Shown: positions 38,591 to 44,780 of the stretch, in pieces
How positions within the stretch are numbered: position 1 is the stretch's first letter
How the letters are laid out: every line of letters starts with the position of its first letter
Assembly: GCF_013340205.1 (NCBI RefSeq)
Contig: NZ_BJTG01000006.1
Span: forward strand, 248,001 to 312,000
DNA: 64,000 nt
Direction of reading: 5' to 3'
Origin: Anaeromyxobacter diazotrophicus
GTDB taxonomy: Bacteria; Myxococcota; Myxococcia; Myxococcales; Anaeromyxobacteraceae
Program-made: the position numbers and the translations under genes
Notes under the pieces: generated by a model
What the model was told of the DNA's origin: nothing
The model's input: only the letters and a program-made list of their open reading frames with translations
Database searches by the model: none

Positions 38591-39571
38591 ATGCGCCTCG
38601 GCCAACGCCAGATCCCGCTCGCCGCCCTGCTCGTGGTCGCCGGAGGCGTCGCCGTCTGCGTCCCCGGCGTCCCCGCGGCGGCGGCGCTGGCCGGCGGGAT
38701 CGCCATCGCCCTCACCGTCGGGAACCCGCTCGCCGCCAGGACGCGCCCGCTCGCGAAGGAGCTCCTCCCCGCCTCGGTGGTCGCGCTCGGCGGCGGGATG
38801 GACCTGGCCGCGGTGGCGCGCGTCGGCGCCCACGGGATCGGGTACACGGTGGTGTCGATCGGCGCCTGCGCTGCGCTGGGGTGGGGGCTCTCGCGGGCGC
38901 TGGCCGTCGAGCGCCGCACCGGGCTGCTCGTCACGGTCGGCACCGCCATCTGCGGCGGGAGCGCCATCGCCGCGGCGGCGCCGGTGCTCGGGGCGGACGA
39001 CCGCGAGCTCTCGGTCTCGCTGGCGACGGTGTTCGTGCTGAACGCGGTGGCGCTGGTCGTGTTTCCGCCGCTCGGCCACGCCGCGCACCTGTCGCAGCCG
39101 GCCTTCGGGCTGTGGTCGGCGCTCGCCATCCACGACACGAGCTCGGTGGTGGGGGCGGGGATGCAGTACGGCCCGGTGGCGCTCGCCGTGGCCACCACCG
39201 TCAAGCTCGCCCGCGCGCTGTGGATCGTGCCGGTCACGCTGCTGCTCGGGGTGCTCGAGCGGCGGCGCGCGACGGCGGCCGGCCCGGCGGGCACCGCGGG
39301 CGCGCGCAGCCGCCCGCCCTGGTTCATCCTCGGCTTCGTCCTCGCCGCCGCGCTCGCGACCTACGCCCCCGGGCTGCGCCCGGCCGGGAAGCTCCTCGCG
39401 GCGGTGGGCGGCCGCGCGCTCGTCCTGACGCTGTTCCTGATCGGCCTGGGCCTCTCCCGCGCCAGCCTGCGCGCGGTGGGGGCGCGGCCGCTGCTGCTCG
39501 GGGCCGCGCTGTGGCTCGCCATGGGGACCGGGACGCTCGCCGCGGTCTACCTCGGCTGGGCGGCGCTGTAG
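38591..39571 (+). CDS. YeiH-family putative sulfate exporter (first copy)
   Basis: A 326-residue membrane protein with about 10 hydrophobic helices. It has the family's internal Gly-rich motifs: LPASVVALGGGMDLAAV near 65, GTAICGGSAIAAAAPVLGA near 120, and IHDTSSVVGAGMQYG near 180. The family is annotated as putative sulfate (sulfonate-derived) exporters. A GTG at 38525 would add 22 low-complexity residues; the ATG at 38591 sits just before the first helix and is preferred. It precedes a paralogue and the sulfite reductase genes. Confidence 0.85.
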   Translation: MRLGQRQIPLAALLVVAGGVAVCVPGVPAAAALAGGIAIALTVGNPLAARTRPLAKELLPASVVALGGGMDLAAVARVGAHGIGYTVVSIGACAALGWGLSRALAVERRTGLLVTVGTAICGGSAIAAAAPVLGADDRELSVSLATVFVLNAVALVVFPPLGHAAHLSQPAFGLWSALAIHDTSSVVGAGMQYGPVALAVATTVKLARALWIVPVTLLLGVLERRRATAAGPAGTAGARSRPPWFILGFVLAAALATYAPGLRPAGKLLAAVGGRALVLTLFLIGLGLSRASLRAVGARPLLLGAALWLAMGTGTLAAVYLGWAAL

Positions 39572-39589
39572 CTCGCCCCATCCGGCATC

Positions 39590-39640
39590 ACGGACAGACG
39601 TCCGTTGTCCGCTTGACAGGACGCGCGTCCGCGATACAAG
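39590..39640 (+). promoter_or_regulatory. Promoter with palindromes upstream of the sulfur operon
   Basis: TTGACA (39613-39618), a 16-base spacer and TACAAG (39635-39640) form the best sigma-70-like promoter in the window. The spacer holds a perfect 12-base palindrome GGACGCGCGTCC (39619-39630). Upstream is a second dyad ACGGAC-N4-GTCCGT (39590-39605), centred 27 bases away. Both share GGAC/GTCC half-sites, as expected for an operator bound by a dimeric regulator. The regulator is not identifiable. Confidence 0.55.
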
Positions 39641-39649
39641 ATGCAGCGC

Positions 39650-39754
39650 ATGCTGGCCGCCACGGCGCGACGCGCCCAAGCCCGAACCGCTCACGCGCCC
39701 GCCGCCGGGTGCGCCTGTCCCGAGCCGGCGCCTCCCGCGCGAATGCGCGGCTGA
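39650..39754 (+). CDS. Candidate cysteine-containing leader peptide (34 aa)
   Basis: A short ORF begins 9 bases after the -10 box of the sulfur-operon promoter, so its mRNA would be nearly leaderless. The peptide contains AAGCACPEPAPP with Cys at residues 21 and 23, followed by a stretch of prolines that would also slow ribosomes. An in-frame ATG nine bases earlier is an alternative start. Downstream, two copies of GCCGGCGC (39724-39731 and 39756-39763) can each pair with GCGCCGGC (39800-39807), an arrangement seen in attenuators. In such GC-rich DNA this may still be chance. Confidence 0.35.
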   Translation: MLAATARRAQARTAHAPAAGCACPEPAPPARMRG

Positions 39755-39862
39755 CGCCGGCGCTCCACCCCTCCCGCCCCTCCCACCGCTTCGCCTCACG
39801 CGCCGGCCCGACCAGGGCTGCGGAGCCGTGCGCGCTCGAACCTCGGCCCCCGCGAGCAGACC

Positions 39863-41203
39863 ATGTCGAACCTCCCGCAGAACGCGCTCCCCTGGCACCG
39901 GCGCGAGGACACCTGGGCCATCTTCATCGCGCTCGGGCTCGTGCTGGCGGTGAGCGGCGCCTTCTTCCTCGGCGCCTCGCGCGCGGTCGGCGCGGCCGCG
40001 CTCGCCATCCCGACCTGGTCAGGCAGCCTCGGCGCCGTGACCGCCGCCCTGCGCGCCCAGCCGGCCGGGCCGCTCGCCCTGCTCCTCGTCTTCCTCGTCG
40101 CCTTCTCGGCCGCCTCGGCGGTCATCGGCTGGGACGTCGTCAAGTACGCCGCCGGCTTCGCGCTGCTCTTCGCGGTCTCGCTGGTGGTGGCGGTCCTGGG
40201 CTCGAACCAGACGCTCAAGGACTGGCAGCTCGAGACGCCGCTCCTGGCGCTCCTGGTCGGCATGGCGCTCGGGAACGCGGTGGCGCTCCCGGCGTGGTTC
40301 CAGTCGGCGCTCCGCACCGAGTTCTACGTCAAGGTCGGCATCGTCCTCATGGGCGCGACGCTCCCCTTCACCATCATCCTGCAGGCGGGCCCCCTCGCCG
40401 TCGCGCAGGCGACCGTGGTCGCGGTGACGACCTTCACCGCCATCTACCTCGCCGCCACCCGCCTGTTCGGCCTCGATCCGCGCTTCGGCGCCACCCTCGG
40501 CGCGGGCGGCTCGATCTGCGGCGTCTCCGCGGCCATCGCCATCGGCGGCGCCTGCCGCGCCGAGAAGAGCCACGTGTCGGTCGCGATCTCGATGGTGATC
40601 CTGTGGGCGGTGGCCATGATCTTCGCGCTGCCGGTCGCGGCGCGGCACCTCGGGCTCGCGGCGGGCCCGGCCGGCGCCTGGATCGGCACCTCCGAGTTCG
40701 CCGACGCGGCCGGCTTCGCCGCCGCCGCCGCCCTGGGCGACGAGCGCGCGGTGAAGACCTTCACGCTCATGAAGGTGGTGGGGCGCGACATGTTCGTCGG
40801 CCTCTGGGCGCTGGTGGTGGCGTTCCTGTCGGTCACGGTCTGGGAGCGGAAGCGCGCCGCGGACGCGGAGCGCGTGGGGCTGGGCGAGGTGTGGCGGCGC
40901 TTCCCCAAGTTCATCCTGGGCTTCTTCGTGGCGTCGCTCGTCGTGACGGTGATCCTGGCCTCGCTCGACGGGCGGATCGGGACCCGCTTCTCCAAGGAGG
41001 CCGTGGGCCCGCTCAAGACGCTGCGCGGCTGGGCGTTCACCTGGACCTTCCTCTCCATCGGCTTCACCACCCGCTTCCGCGAGCTGACGCGCTTCGGCTG
41101 GAAGCCGTTCGCCGCCTTCGCGCTGGGCGTCGCCGTCAACGTCCCGCTCGGCTACTGGCTCTCCACGCGGGTCTTCGCGAGCTACTGGCTCGCGGTGAAG
41201 TAG
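39863..41203 (+). CDS. YeiH-family putative sulfate exporter (second copy, long form)
   Basis: A 446-residue membrane protein with about 11-12 hydrophobic segments. An N-terminal cytosolic stretch (NALPWHRREDTWAIFIALGLVLAV) leads into the YeiH core with EFYVKVGIVLMGATLPF, LGAGGSICGVSAAIAIGGACRAEK and KVVGRDMFVGLWAL. Compared with the first copy it has extra N-terminal helices. The shared operon with siroheme synthase and sulfite reductase genes supports a role in moving sulfate, sulfite or a sulfonate; the direction of transport is not proven. Confidence 0.87.
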   Translation: MSNLPQNALPWHRREDTWAIFIALGLVLAVSGAFFLGASRAVGAAALAIPTWSGSLGAVTAALRAQPAGPLALLLVFLVAFSAASAVIGWDVVKYAAGFALLFAVSLVVAVLGSNQTLKDWQLETPLLALLVGMALGNAVALPAWFQSALRTEFYVKVGIVLMGATLPFTIILQAGPLAVAQATVVAVTTFTAIYLAATRLFGLDPRFGATLGAGGSICGVSAAIAIGGACRAEKSHVSVAISMVILWAVAMIFALPVAARHLGLAAGPAGAWIGTSEFADAAGFAAAAALGDERAVKTFTLMKVVGRDMFVGLWALVVAFLSVTVWERKRAADAERVGLGEVWRRFPKFILGFFVASLVVTVILASLDGRIGTRFSKEAVGPLKTLRGWAFTWTFLSIGFTTRFRELTRFGWKPFAAFALGVAVNVPLGYWLSTRVFASYWLAVK

Positions 41204-41212
41204 GGGCGCGCC

Positions 41213-41452
41213 ATGGTCGATCTCCTGACGCTGGTCACCCCCGAGCGCGGCCTCGCCCGCTGCCGGGCCCGCGAGCTCGGCGCGGCGCTCGCCGGGCTCG
41301 GCTTCGAGCGCCGGCCGGCGCCCGCCGGCGAGGCCTTCGCCTCGACCGAGGTGGAGGCGGGGGCGGTGAAGCGGCACCTGCTCGCGGCCGGGTTCCGCGA
41401 CCGGGAGTTCCGGGTGGTCCTCGAGTACGTGCGGCAGTGGGGGGTCCTGTGA
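41213..41452 (+). CDS. Small protein in the sulfur cluster (79 aa, unknown)
   Basis: I do not recognise the family. The 79 residues are mixed alpha/beta in character (LARCRARELGAALAGLGFERR, then FRVVLEYVRQWGVL), with no signal or membrane segment. Two genes flank it tightly: the transporter stops 9 bases earlier, and its own stop overlaps the GTG of the siroheme synthase gene. That spacing, and a normal codon pattern, support a real gene. A role in sulfite or nitrite assimilation is inference from context. Confidence 0.68.
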   Translation: MVDLLTLVTPERGLARCRARELGAALAGLGFERRPAPAGEAFASTEVEAGAVKRHLLAAGFRDREFRVVLEYVRQWGVL

Positions 41453-42789
41453 GCGCGCCGCTCCTGCCGCTCTTCGTGAAGCTCGCGGGGCGCCCGGTGG
41501 TGGTGGTGGGCGGCGGCGCGATGGCCGCGCTGCGCGTGCGGCAGCTCGCCGAGGTGGGCGCGCGCGTGACGGTGGTGGCGCCCGAGGTGCGCGAGGAGGT
41601 GGCCCGCGCCGCCGGCGCGGTGGTCCGCCGCGGCTTCCTCCCCGAGGACCTCGACGGCGCGTGGCTCGCGGTCGCGGCCGCCACCCCGGAGGTGAACCGG
41701 GCGGTGGCGGCGGCCGCCGAGGCGCGGCGGCTGCTCGTCAACGCGGTGGACGACCCGGAGCACGCCAGCGCCTACACGGCGGGGGTGGTGCGGCGGGGCG
41801 AGGCGACCGTCGCCATCTCGACCGGCGGCCGCGCACCGGCGCTGGCGGGGCTCCTGCGCGAGGCGATCGACGCCGTGCTCCCCCGCGAGCTGGGGCGCTG
41901 GGTCGAGCTCGGCGAGGCGGAGCGCGGCGCCTGGAAGCGCGGGAAGGTCCCGCTCGCCACCCGCCGGCCCATGCTGCTCCGCAAGCTGAACGCCCTCTAC
42001 GACGGCGCCGAGCCGGCGCCCGCCCGCGCGCCGGGGGGCTTCGTCTCGCTGGTGGGGGCGGGGCCCGGCGATCCCGGGCTCCTCACCCGGCGCGCGGCGG
42101 AGCGCCTGGCGGCGGCGGACCTCGTGCTCTACGACGCGCTCGTCGACGCGGAGCTGCTCCGGCTGGCGCCGCGCGCCCACTGCTTCCACGTCGGGAAGCG
42201 GGCCGGCCGCCCCAGCGTCTCGCAGCGGGCCATCGAGCGGCTCCTGATCCGCGGCGCGCGGCGCGGGCAGCGGGTGGTGCGGCTCAAGTGCGGCGACCCG
42301 TTCGTCTTCGGCCGCGGCGGCGAGGAGGCGCTGGCGCTCGCCCAGGCCGGCGTGCCGTTCGAGGTGGTGCCGGGCCTCTCCTCGGCCCTCGCCGCCCCGG
42401 CGCTGGCCGGCATCCCGGTCACCCACCGCGGCGTCGCCGCCGGGTTCGCGGTCGTCTCCGGGCACGCCGAGGCGACCTACGGGCCGCTCGTCGACGCCCT
42501 CCCGCCGACCGGCGTGACGCTGGTCGTGCTCATGGGCGTGGCCGCCCGCGCCGCGCTGGCCGACCGGCTGCGCGCGCGCGGGTGGAGCGCGAGCACGCCC
42601 GCCGCGCTCCTCCTCGGCGCCTCCAGCGCCGAGGGCTTCACCTGGACCGGGCCGCTCTCCGCGCTGGGCGAGGCGCCCATCCCGCCGGAGCGCGCCCACC
42701 TCCCCGGGACGCTGGTGGTGGGCGCGGTCGCCGCGCTCGCCTCGGCGGCCCACGCCGATCACCCCGCCGCCAGCGCGCGGCTCGCCTGA
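41449..42789 (+). CDS. cysG: Siroheme synthase (CysG-like: precorrin-2 dehydrogenase plus uroporphyrinogen-III methyltransferase)
   Basis: A 446-residue fusion that makes siroheme for the reductase encoded next door. Residues 1-195 are the dehydrogenase/ferrochelatase part with NAD site VVVVGGGAMAALRVRQLAEVG and ISTGGRAPALAGLLRE. Residues 200-446 are the SAM-dependent methyltransferase: LVGAGPGDPGLLTRRA, VRLKCGDPFVFGRGGEE, PFEVVPGLSSALAAPA and GIPVTHRG. The GTG start overlaps the preceding stop; its own stop overlaps the reductase start by one base (TGATG). Confidence 0.93.
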   Translation: MSAPLLPLFVKLAGRPVVVVGGGAMAALRVRQLAEVGARVTVVAPEVREEVARAAGAVVRRGFLPEDLDGAWLAVAAATPEVNRAVAAAAEARRLLVNAVDDPEHASAYTAGVVRRGEATVAISTGGRAPALAGLLREAIDAVLPRELGRWVELGEAERGAWKRGKVPLATRRPMLLRKLNALYDGAEPAPARAPGGFVSLVGAGPGDPGLLTRRAAERLAAADLVLYDALVDAELLRLAPRAHCFHVGKRAGRPSVSQRAIERLLIRGARRGQRVVRLKCGDPFVFGRGGEEALALAQAGVPFEVVPGLSSALAAPALAGIPVTHRGVAAGFAVVSGHAEATYGPLVDALPPTGVTLVVLMGVAARAALADRLRARGWSASTPAALLLGASSAEGFTWTGPLSALGEAPIPPERAHLPGTLVVGAVAALASAAHADHPAASARLA

Positions 42790-44780
42790 TGGAGCAGCCC
42801 GTGTCCGAGACCACGACCACGACCCGCAAGCCGACCGCGACCGCGCCGGCGAACACGACCTCGACCGCGACCTCGACGGCGGCCACGACGGCGACCACGA
42901 CGGCGACCACGGCCTCGACGGCGGCCGCGACCGCGACCGCGACCGCGACCACGACCACGACCTCGTCCACGGCGGGGCGGGAGCGGGCGGGGTTCGCCGA
43001 GGCGGCGGACGTCGACGCCTTCCTCGCCGAGCTCAGGCGCTTCGAGCGCGGCGAGATCGACGCCGAGCAGTGGCGCGCCTACCGGACGCTGCGCGGCGTC
43101 TACGGGCAGCGGCAGGAGGGGCACATGGTGCGGGTGAAGGTGCCGCAGGGCGTGCTCTCGGCCGAGCAGCTGCGCGCCATCGCCGCCGTCGCCCGGCCCT
43201 ACGCGCGGGGCTTCGGCCACATCACCACCCGCCAGGACGTGCAGCTGCACTTCGTGGCGCAGGAGCACCTCGTGGCGGTGCTGGCGCGGCTCGGCGAGGC
43301 GGGGCTCACCACGCACGGCGCCTGCGGGAACGCGGTGAGGAACGTGGTCGCTTGCCCGCACGCCGGCGTGTCGCAGGACGAGCTGTTCGACGTGACGCCC
43401 TACGCCGAGGCGGTGACGCGCCACTTCCTGCGCCACCCCCTCGGCTCCTCGCTCCCGCGCAAGTTCAAGATCGCGTTCGAGGGGTGCGCCGAGGACCACG
43501 CGCGTACGGCCATCCAGGACATCGGATTCCGGGCGCGGCTGCGCAGCGAGGGCGCCCGGGCGGTCCGCGGCTTCGCGGTGACGGTGGCGGGGGGCACCTC
43601 CTCGGCCTGCACCTCGGGCAGCCCCCTCGTCGAGTTCCTGCCGGCGGCCGACGTGCTGGCGCTGGCGGAGGCCATCGTCCGCGTGTTCCACGCGCGCGGC
43701 GACCGCGAGCACCGCCAGCGGAACCGGCTCAAGTTCCTGGTCCGGCAGCTCGGGTTCGAGACGTTCCGGACGCTGCTCACCGAGGAGCTGGCCCGCGTGC
43801 GGGCCGAGGGCGCTCCCGCGCTGCCCTTCGACCCGGAGGCGGCTCCCGTGGAGCTCCCGCCCGCGCGCGCCCGCCCGGCGGCGCCCAGCCCCCCGGCCCT
43901 CGCGGCGCGGGTGGCGGCCGATCCCCCGCGCGGCCCCGGACTCCTCCCCGACACGGCCGCCGAGCTCGCGCCGCCCGCCGCCGCGCGCGAGCTGTTCCGC
44001 CGCACGAACGCGCAGCCCCAGCGGCAGCGGGGGTACTCGACCGTCACGCTCTCGCCGGCGCGCGGCGACCTCACCGCCGCGCAGCTCGAGGCGGTGGCCG
44101 ACCTCGCGCTCGCCTACGGGGACGGCGCGGTGCGGCTCGCCAGCGGCGGCCACGTGCTCCTGCGCTGGGTGCCGGACGCCGAGATCGAGGCGCTGTACGA
44201 GGGCGCCGCCGCGGCCGGGCTCGGCCGCGCCGGGGCCGGCAGCGCCGGGGACGTGATCGCCTGCCCCGGCGCCGAGTCGTGCCGCCTGGCCGTGGCCGAC
44301 ACCCGCCTGCTGGCGCGCGACGTGGACGCGCACGTCCGCGGTGGGCTGGGGGCGCGCGCCCTCACGGAGCGGCTCCCGCTGCACGTCTCCGGGTGTCCCA
44401 ACGGGTGCAGCCAGCACCACCTCGCCGCCATCGGTCTGCAGGGCAGCCTGCGCAAGCTGGCCGGGCGCGCGGTGCCGCAGTACTTCGTGCTGCTCGGCGG
44501 CGGGGTGGACGAGCGCGGTGCGCGCTTCGGCAAGCTCGCCGCCAAGATCCCGCGCCGGCGGGTGCCGGAGGCGGTGGAGCGCCTCACCGCCCTGTGGCTC
44601 GCCGCGCGCCGCCCGGGAGAGGAGGCCGGCGCCTTCTTCGCCCGGGAGCACGAGCGGGCCCGCGCCGCGCTGAGGGAGCTCGAGGAGCTGCGGGTGGAGG
44701 ACGTCCGGGAGGAGGACTTCGCGCCCCTGGAGGACGGAGGGCCCGCCGAACCGTCCGGGCCGGCGACGACTGCGGCCTGA
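42789..44780 (+). CDS. Siroheme-dependent nitrite/sulfite reductase with Thr-rich N-terminus
   Basis: A 663-residue siroheme/[4Fe-4S] reductase that performs six-electron reduction of sulfite to sulfide or nitrite to ammonia. Two ferredoxin-like/NiR-SiR repeats are seen. The cluster cysteines are in ACPGAESCRLA (about 492 and 498) and SGCPNGCSQHH (about 535 and 539). HMVRVKVPQGVLSAEQL and GHITTRQDVQLHFV mark the first half. Residues about 8-62 are almost only Thr, Ala and Ser, encoded by hexamer repeats, and precede the catalytic core. Context with siroheme synthase and sulfate-type transporters favours sulfite. GTG at 42801 is an alternative start. Confidence 0.9.
   Translation: MEQPVSETTTTTRKPTATAPANTTSTATSTAATTATTTATTASTAAATATATATTTTTSSTAGRERAGFAEAADVDAFLAELRRFERGEIDAEQWRAYRTLRGVYGQRQEGHMVRVKVPQGVLSAEQLRAIAAVARPYARGFGHITTRQDVQLHFVAQEHLVAVLARLGEAGLTTHGACGNAVRNVVACPHAGVSQDELFDVTPYAEAVTRHFLRHPLGSSLPRKFKIAFEGCAEDHARTAIQDIGFRARLRSEGARAVRGFAVTVAGGTSSACTSGSPLVEFLPAADVLALAEAIVRVFHARGDREHRQRNRLKFLVRQLGFETFRTLLTEELARVRAEGAPALPFDPEAAPVELPPARARPAAPSPPALAARVAADPPRGPGLLPDTAAELAPPAAARELFRRTNAQPQRQRGYSTVTLSPARGDLTAAQLEAVADLALAYGDGAVRLASGGHVLLRWVPDAEIEALYEGAAAAGLGRAGAGSAGDVIACPGAESCRLAVADTRLLARDVDAHVRGGLGARALTERLPLHVSGCPNGCSQHHLAAIGLQGSLRKLAGRAVPQYFVLLGGGVDERGARFGKLAAKIPRRRVPEAVERLTALWLAARRPGEEAGAFFAREHERARAALRELEELRVEDVREEDFAPLEDGGPAEPSGPATTAA
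42809..42978 (+). repeat. Degenerate CGACCA/CGACCG hexamer repeats within the reductase gene
   Basis: About 170 bases are built from imperfect copies of ACGACC, GCGACC and ACGGCG. They encode the Thr/Ala-rich N-terminus of the reductase. Whole-hexamer gains or losses keep the frame, so variation would change length and not switch the gene off. Confidence 0.7.

Follow-up and report, generated by a model that had tools for sequence, protein, structure and literature searches.

Cysteine leader peptides were predicted before the cys operons of actinobacteria by Seliverstov et al. in 2005 (PMC1262725), and a role for Rho was proposed for the mycobacterial cys operons in the same study. An experimental test in Mycobacterium smegmatis followed in 2020 (Canestrari et al.; doi 10.1111/mmi.14498), as related in PMC9031893 and PMC13236596. 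In Rhodobacterales, the uORFC-8-2 motif lies before cysS (Brewer et al. 2021; PMC8632094). In Streptomyces lividans, a leader designated "metL" (MSTTSDRTPATEATTTPGARCMCRRMCAF) precedes metNIQ and was assigned to methionine in the study that described it (PMC8079986). The metL peptide (..RCMCRRMCAF; PMC8079986, Table 4) has three Cys codons near its stop codon, and cysteine, not methionine, may be the amino acid to which it responds.

The leader described here was recognized in a 64,000-nucleotide stretch of Anaeromyxobacter diazotrophicus DNA (the window; 75% G+C, from a genome of 4.83 Mb) and is found in other Anaeromyxobacteraceae. Like the actinobacterial cysteine leaders, it has a short ORF, here predicted to be leaderless or nearly so, whose Cys codons lie toward the 3' end and which is located before genes for sulfur or cysteine metabolism, and in both cases a U-tract terminator is lacking and Rho is suggested. 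In the predicted mycobacterial leaders, however, the Cys codons form runs, and none of these leaders was reported to have a conserved hairpin, whereas the Anaeromyxobacteraceae leader, from another phylum, has CxC or CC directly beside a conserved hairpin in which the stop codon lies. The contiguous Cys run by which mycobacterial polycysteine leaders are recognized is not a feature of this leader; contiguous CC or CCC was found only in genomes G009, G007, and G005, and Cys-x-Cys mostly elsewhere. Similarity to curated leader families was likewise not found, in an NCBIfam search with three of the leader peptides that gave no match at E values up to 1. The uORFC-8-2 motif shares tandem Cys codons in an upstream ORF, hairpins, a cysteine-related gene, and the logic of attenuation, but it controls a cysteinyl-tRNA synthetase, uses an intrinsic terminator with a U-run, and carries its Cys codons inside the first stem. 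The S. lividans metL leader is leaderless, as the present one is predicted to be, with CxCRR near the stop codon, a sulfur amino acid gene behind it, and no intrinsic terminator, but it belongs to another phylum and precedes another gene, and its resemblance may be convergent. The Anaeromyxobacteraceae leader would thus work like the actinobacterial and rhodobacterial leaders, while by sequence it is a member of neither group.

Results

Leader copies were gathered by promoter and by first gene, and the arrangement was found in 15 copies in 14 of the 24 Anaeromyxobacteraceae genomes. A preliminary description of the window had placed a promoter of the form TTGACA-N16-TACAAG, with a palindromic spacer, before a short ORF containing Cys-Ala-Cys and then several prolines, and all of these elements were confirmed as placed. 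On the plus strand, the -35 box TTGACA, read in the sequence (positions 39613 to 39618), was kept in 15/15 leaders; the -10 box TACAAG (39635 to 39640) was replaced by TAGGAT, TCCAAG, or CAGGAT in relatives, and the 16-nt spacer between the boxes contained GGACGCGCGTCC. The leader ORF of 34 codons (39650 to 39754, plus strand) runs from ATG at 39650 to TGA at 39752 to 39754. Its proposed sensing codons, TGC GCC TGT (Cys-Ala-Cys, 39710 to 39718, plus strand; TGC at 39710 and TGT at 39716), are followed by Pro and Ala codons. An alternative in-frame ATG at 39641 gives 37 codons with the same TGA, but it is so near the -10 box that a start site about 7 nt downstream would leave it out of the transcript.

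All 15 copies had an in-frame ATG or GTG at a constant distance from the promoter, approximately 9 to 12 nt behind the -10 box, which predicts a 5' untranslated region of a few nucleotides. The length of the ORF varied from 93 to 111 nt, always by multiples of three and with the stop codon in frame. At least one in-frame Cys codon was present near the hairpin described below in every copy, and two or three such codons, adjacent or one codon apart, were present in 13/15; in all copies, the in-frame Cys codons lay 27 to 45 nt ahead of the end of the stop codon. The codon between the Cys codons varied freely (Ala, Thr, Met, Ile, Pro, or Cys). The leader of G017, whose downstream region is cut by the end of its contig, had one Cys codon and a degenerate hairpin. 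TGY accounts for about 1.9% of the window's trinucleotides, so that chance would not be expected to put a Cys codon here in all of the copies, with the limitation that the genomes are related and the copies nonindependent. Codons further upstream in the ORF were too variable for a claim that the peptide is under purifying selection. The test set beforehand for the proposal was whether relatives conserve the short ORF and its Cys codons; these 15 copies in 14 genomes, with the reading frame kept, show that they do.

The -35 box is surrounded by operator-like inverted repeats, CGGACAGACGTCCG and TTGTCCGCTTGACAGGACGCGCGTCC (39591 to 39632, plus strand), that are common to sulfur genes of the family. 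An operator pattern, TTGTCCGCTTGACAGGANNNNCGTCC, matched 22 of the 24 family genomes when three mismatches were allowed, with no control matches, and it preceded cysK, metY (O-acetylhomoserine sulfhydrylase), cysD, cysH, metQ, and yeiH/osmC genes in Anaeromyxobacteraceae genomes. Genes behind operator sites were named by eye from their translations, except where a family search is cited. The operator also preceded threonine-synthase-like genes bearing a SAM-II-type riboswitch in family genomes; in three of these, the riboswitch (RF00521, SAM_alpha) lies directly 3' of the sulfur operator and before the threonine-synthase-like gene (L072:1566-1641, L048:1376-1450 on the minus strand, and L052:592-667). 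At the cysD, cysK, and metY sites of family genomes, the operator was present and no cysteine leader was seen. Because the operator is shared with other sulfur genes, a common repressor for the operator-bearing genes is suggested. A regulator gene for the operator was not found, the other operator sites in the window's genome fronting cysD, metN, cysK, and a CBS-domain gene. In this genome (G000), an operator-like palindrome, TCCGTTATNACGGA, occurs before the same four genes (C9:259323, C9:283779, C2:264700, and C3:346555; L199 to L202).

A two-part hairpin, designated hairpin A (39724 to 39761, plus strand), contains the end of the ORF, with the stop codon within its 3' side. The outer stem pairs 39724 to 39730 with 39755 to 39761 (GCCGGC(G)/(C)GCCGGC), and the inner stem pairs 39735 to 39740 with 39745 to 39750 (CCGCGC/GCGCGG), leaving a GAAT loop at 39741 to 39744. 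The repeat GCCGGCGC at 39724 to 39731 and 39756 to 39763 and its complement GCGCCGGC at 39800 to 39807 were all present as first described. The claim that the first repeat copy lies just past the Cys codons also held, as the 5' arm of hairpin A begins about 5 nt past the last Cys codon in the window; in all copies, the Cys codons lie within about 10 nt of the 5' arm. A two-part hairpin contained the end of the ORF in each leader copy, with that of G017 being degenerate, and its energy was below the mean of dinucleotide shuffles in 15/15 (z = -0.9 to -4.4; z = -2.6 for the window).

Paired columns were nearly invariant in an alignment of 13 copies, so that covariation there gave no support either way. 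In the G002 leader, which precedes cysH, the inner stem CCGCGC/GCGCGG is replaced by GCGGAC/GTCCGC and pairing is retained; the loop differs and holds the stop codon, and the outer stem and the position of Cys-Ala-Cys are the same. The covariation support for hairpin A comes from this leader. At unpaired columns, residues change freely (Arg-Met to His-Ala, Arg-Thr, or Arg-Pro; Pro-Pro to Ser-Pro, Pro-Thr, or Ala-Pro), and the conserved peptide tail RRPAPPARMRG is therefore best read as a shadow of RNA structure. The prolines, which had been put forward as a feature of the leader, seem to have come with the hairpin sequence and not from selection on the peptide.

Hairpin A is followed by a C-rich, G-poor tract (39763 to 39787, plus strand), a candidate Rho loading site or anti-Shine-Dalgarno tract, in which C exceeds G by 18 in 25 nt, an extreme of the window background. 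In 10/15 copies, the tract behind the hairpin ranked among the top 1% of background values for the window. A possible hairpin B (39798 to 39840, plus strand), which contains the GCGCCGGC complement, lies before the first structural gene. Stems could be drawn there in most copies with differing sequences, and their stability was not consistently above that of shuffles, so that hairpin B is a weak candidate for a real structure. The mutually exclusive hairpins first proposed, in which 39800 to 39807 would compete for pairing, were not conserved beyond chance, since pairing of the hairpin A 3' arm with downstream DNA beat shuffles (P < 0.05) in only 1/15 copies (P = 0.19 for the window). With regard to the concern that pairing in so GC-rich a context might be fortuitous, hairpin A was more stable than shuffles, and the repeat at 39800 to 39807 is the weakest part of the original scheme. 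An intrinsic terminator with a U-tract was not found on the plus strand, and Rfam covariance models gave no match over 39400 to 40100 up to E = 1.

Use of a 371-base region of the locus as the query recovered the same gene boundary in several relatives, at 67 to 74% identity over approximately 190 to 350 bases. The pattern Cys..xRMRG* matched solely at the leader locus, in 10/24 family genomes, with no control matches. These matches and identities, together with a hairpin that beats shuffles, indicate on comparative grounds that the arrangement is beyond chance. A covariance model built from 13 copies recovered those 13 at E < 1e-9 and gave no convincing match in the rest of the family or among 195 Myxococcota genomes. 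Of the matches to the model outside the main set, some of the best were inspected individually (L125 to L127, L107, L108, and L110); these lay within other coding genes and were considered chance. When about 85,000 species genomes were scanned for the exact pattern, matches were confined to Anaeromyxobacter and related metagenome bins. Pattern matches obtained outside the family consisted of strings that had no hairpin in common with the leaders and were also taken as chance.

Behind the leader in the window, and on the same plus strand, are genes for a yeiH-type putative sulfate exporter (PF03601; 39863 to 41203), a cysG-type siroheme synthase (41449 to 42786), and an NIR_SIR-family sulfite/nitrite reductase (42789 to 44780), taken as a sulfite reductase (sir) by context. 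The reductase scored below equivalog cutoffs, and its putative substrate, sulfite, therefore rests on gene context, which is strong in G002. There, the leader heads a cysH-sat/cysC-cysG-sir operon that ends with the reductase homologue. The operons of the window and of G002 bear out the assignment of the downstream genes to sulfur assimilation. The reductase gene of the window starts with a long and unusual low-complexity Thr/Ala stretch (42790 to 42960; TATSTAATTATTTATT...), and the true start codon may lie elsewhere. Upstream of the promoter, on the same strand, is another, distantly related YeiH-like gene (PF03601; 38525 to 39571), which ends about 20 bp before the operator.

In the DNA fetched for each copy, cysG and/or sir lay behind 13/15 leaders. 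In G009, yeiH is gone and the leader is kept before cysG-sir. In G003, conversely, yeiH has the operator but neither a leader nor cysG-sir behind it, and cysG-sir is found elsewhere, in a metY-cysD operon where no leader was seen. The cysG-sir genes of G011 and the sir gene of G001 are in metY-led stretches, and no leader was seen at either metY promoter. An exception is contig C23 of G010, where a second leader-yeiH copy has no cysG-sir within the 7 kb behind it. From the arrangements in G009, G003, G011, and G001, it is the cysG-sir operon, and not the transporter, that the leader appears to accompany. Two leader copies occur in G010, L065 (C23) and L214 (C8); the start of an osmC-like gene is fused to yeiH behind one of them, and osmC is complete behind the other.

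Discussion

The promoter, ORF, Cys codons, hairpin, C-rich tract, and operon, and their conservation, can all be read in the genomes compared here, and they make it quite likely that the leader is a ribosome-mediated cysteine-codon attenuator, added to an operator that is shared with other sulfur genes. The Cys codons are so placed that a stalled ribosome would affect RNA structure, and the downstream operon makes or supplies cysteine. The spacing fits ribosome-controlled folding as well, since with the 5' arm beginning about 5 nt past the Cys codons, the leading edge of a stalled ribosome would cover that arm. From this organization we infer translation of the ORF, stalling, refolding, and an output step. 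The near-leaderless mRNA would start with the short ORF. When Cys-tRNA is ample, the ribosome would clear the Cys codons, reach the stop codon inside hairpin A, where it would cover the 3' arm, and depart; hairpin A would then fold, the C-rich tract would be exposed, and expression of the operon would be lowered, most likely via Rho-dependent termination or else via occlusion of a ribosome-binding site. When Cys-tRNA is scarce, the ribosome would stall on the Cys codons with its footprint over the 5' arm of the outer stem, so that hairpin A opens; refolding of the leader RNA and expression of the sulfite-reductase operon would follow. The repressor-type operator at the promoter would form a second layer common to other sulfur genes.

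The leader does not have the intrinsic terminator and competing antiterminator of a classical trp-type attenuator. Because no terminator was found and the alternative pairing was not beyond chance, either Rho or a translational output would be needed. Rho is preferred here, the C-rich, G-poor tract resembling a candidate Rho loading site. With the same cysteine sensing, the CUCC of this tract might instead be paired to the first gene's Shine-Dalgarno sequence, except when a stalled ribosome reshapes the leader. Minimum-energy folds do pair CUCC with the GGAG before the start codon in five leaders (G004, G019, G022, G010, and G010b), and translational attenuation of cysteine genes has been reported in mycobacteria, according to work cited in PMC13236596. 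However, pairing with GGAG is open to any C-rich tract, the partners do not align from one genome to the next, and in the window itself the ribosome-binding site is weak and shows no clear pairing; nor is it evident how a stall at Cys codons would free the ribosome-binding site. We regard a translational output as less likely than Rho, by a modest margin.

Two other explanations would dispense with Cys-tRNA as the signal. The ORF might be incidental and hairpin A a protein- or ligand-binding RNA, a constitutive attenuator, or a stabilizer, with the operator as the real control. This would agree with the near-invariant hairpin sequence and with the occurrence of the operator before leaderless sulfur genes such as cysK, metY, and cysD, at which no cysteine leader is present. 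It is nevertheless improbable, as the reading frame and start position are kept despite changes in length, the Cys codons are kept beside the hairpin while the codon between them varies, G002 has a changed hairpin sequence yet retains both the Cys codons and the structure, and Rfam provides no match. Least probable is a sensor in the nascent peptide itself, in which ribosome arrest, or the binding of a metal or thiol, is brought about by the tail RRPAPPARMRG or CxC independently of Cys-tRNA. The C-terminal tail is indeed the best-conserved part of the peptide and reaches the stop codon, and CxC can bind metal, but residues are altered at unpaired columns and paired columns are near-invariant, as expected if RNA pairing is what is kept; moreover, the tail differs in G002 and CxC is not strict (CC, CCC, or a single Cys).

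Cysteine attenuators are known in mycobacteria, as the preliminary description had noted in suggesting that a similar device would be new here, and a literature search found no paper that joins Anaeromyxobacter with a leader-peptide attenuator. As far as these searches show, the proposed device, an amino acid leader-peptide attenuator in kind, is new for Myxococcota. In its most specific form, the proposal is of an independently evolved Myxococcota cysteine leader in which two Cys codons are coupled to Rho at a C-rich tract, with no intrinsic terminator, as a second layer under the operator of a sulfur regulon; this version as a whole is advanced tentatively, at somewhat less than even confidence.

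The model is directly testable in named species (A. terrae, A. soli, A. oryzae, and strain PSR-1), and natural controls are provided by G003, which is without the leader, and by G009 and G002, in which it is rearranged. A conserved cysteine leader before a sulfite reductase in this family suggests that the device arose more than once. Cysteine attenuators may be common in G+C-rich bacteria, where leaders without U-tract terminators are missed by standard scans.
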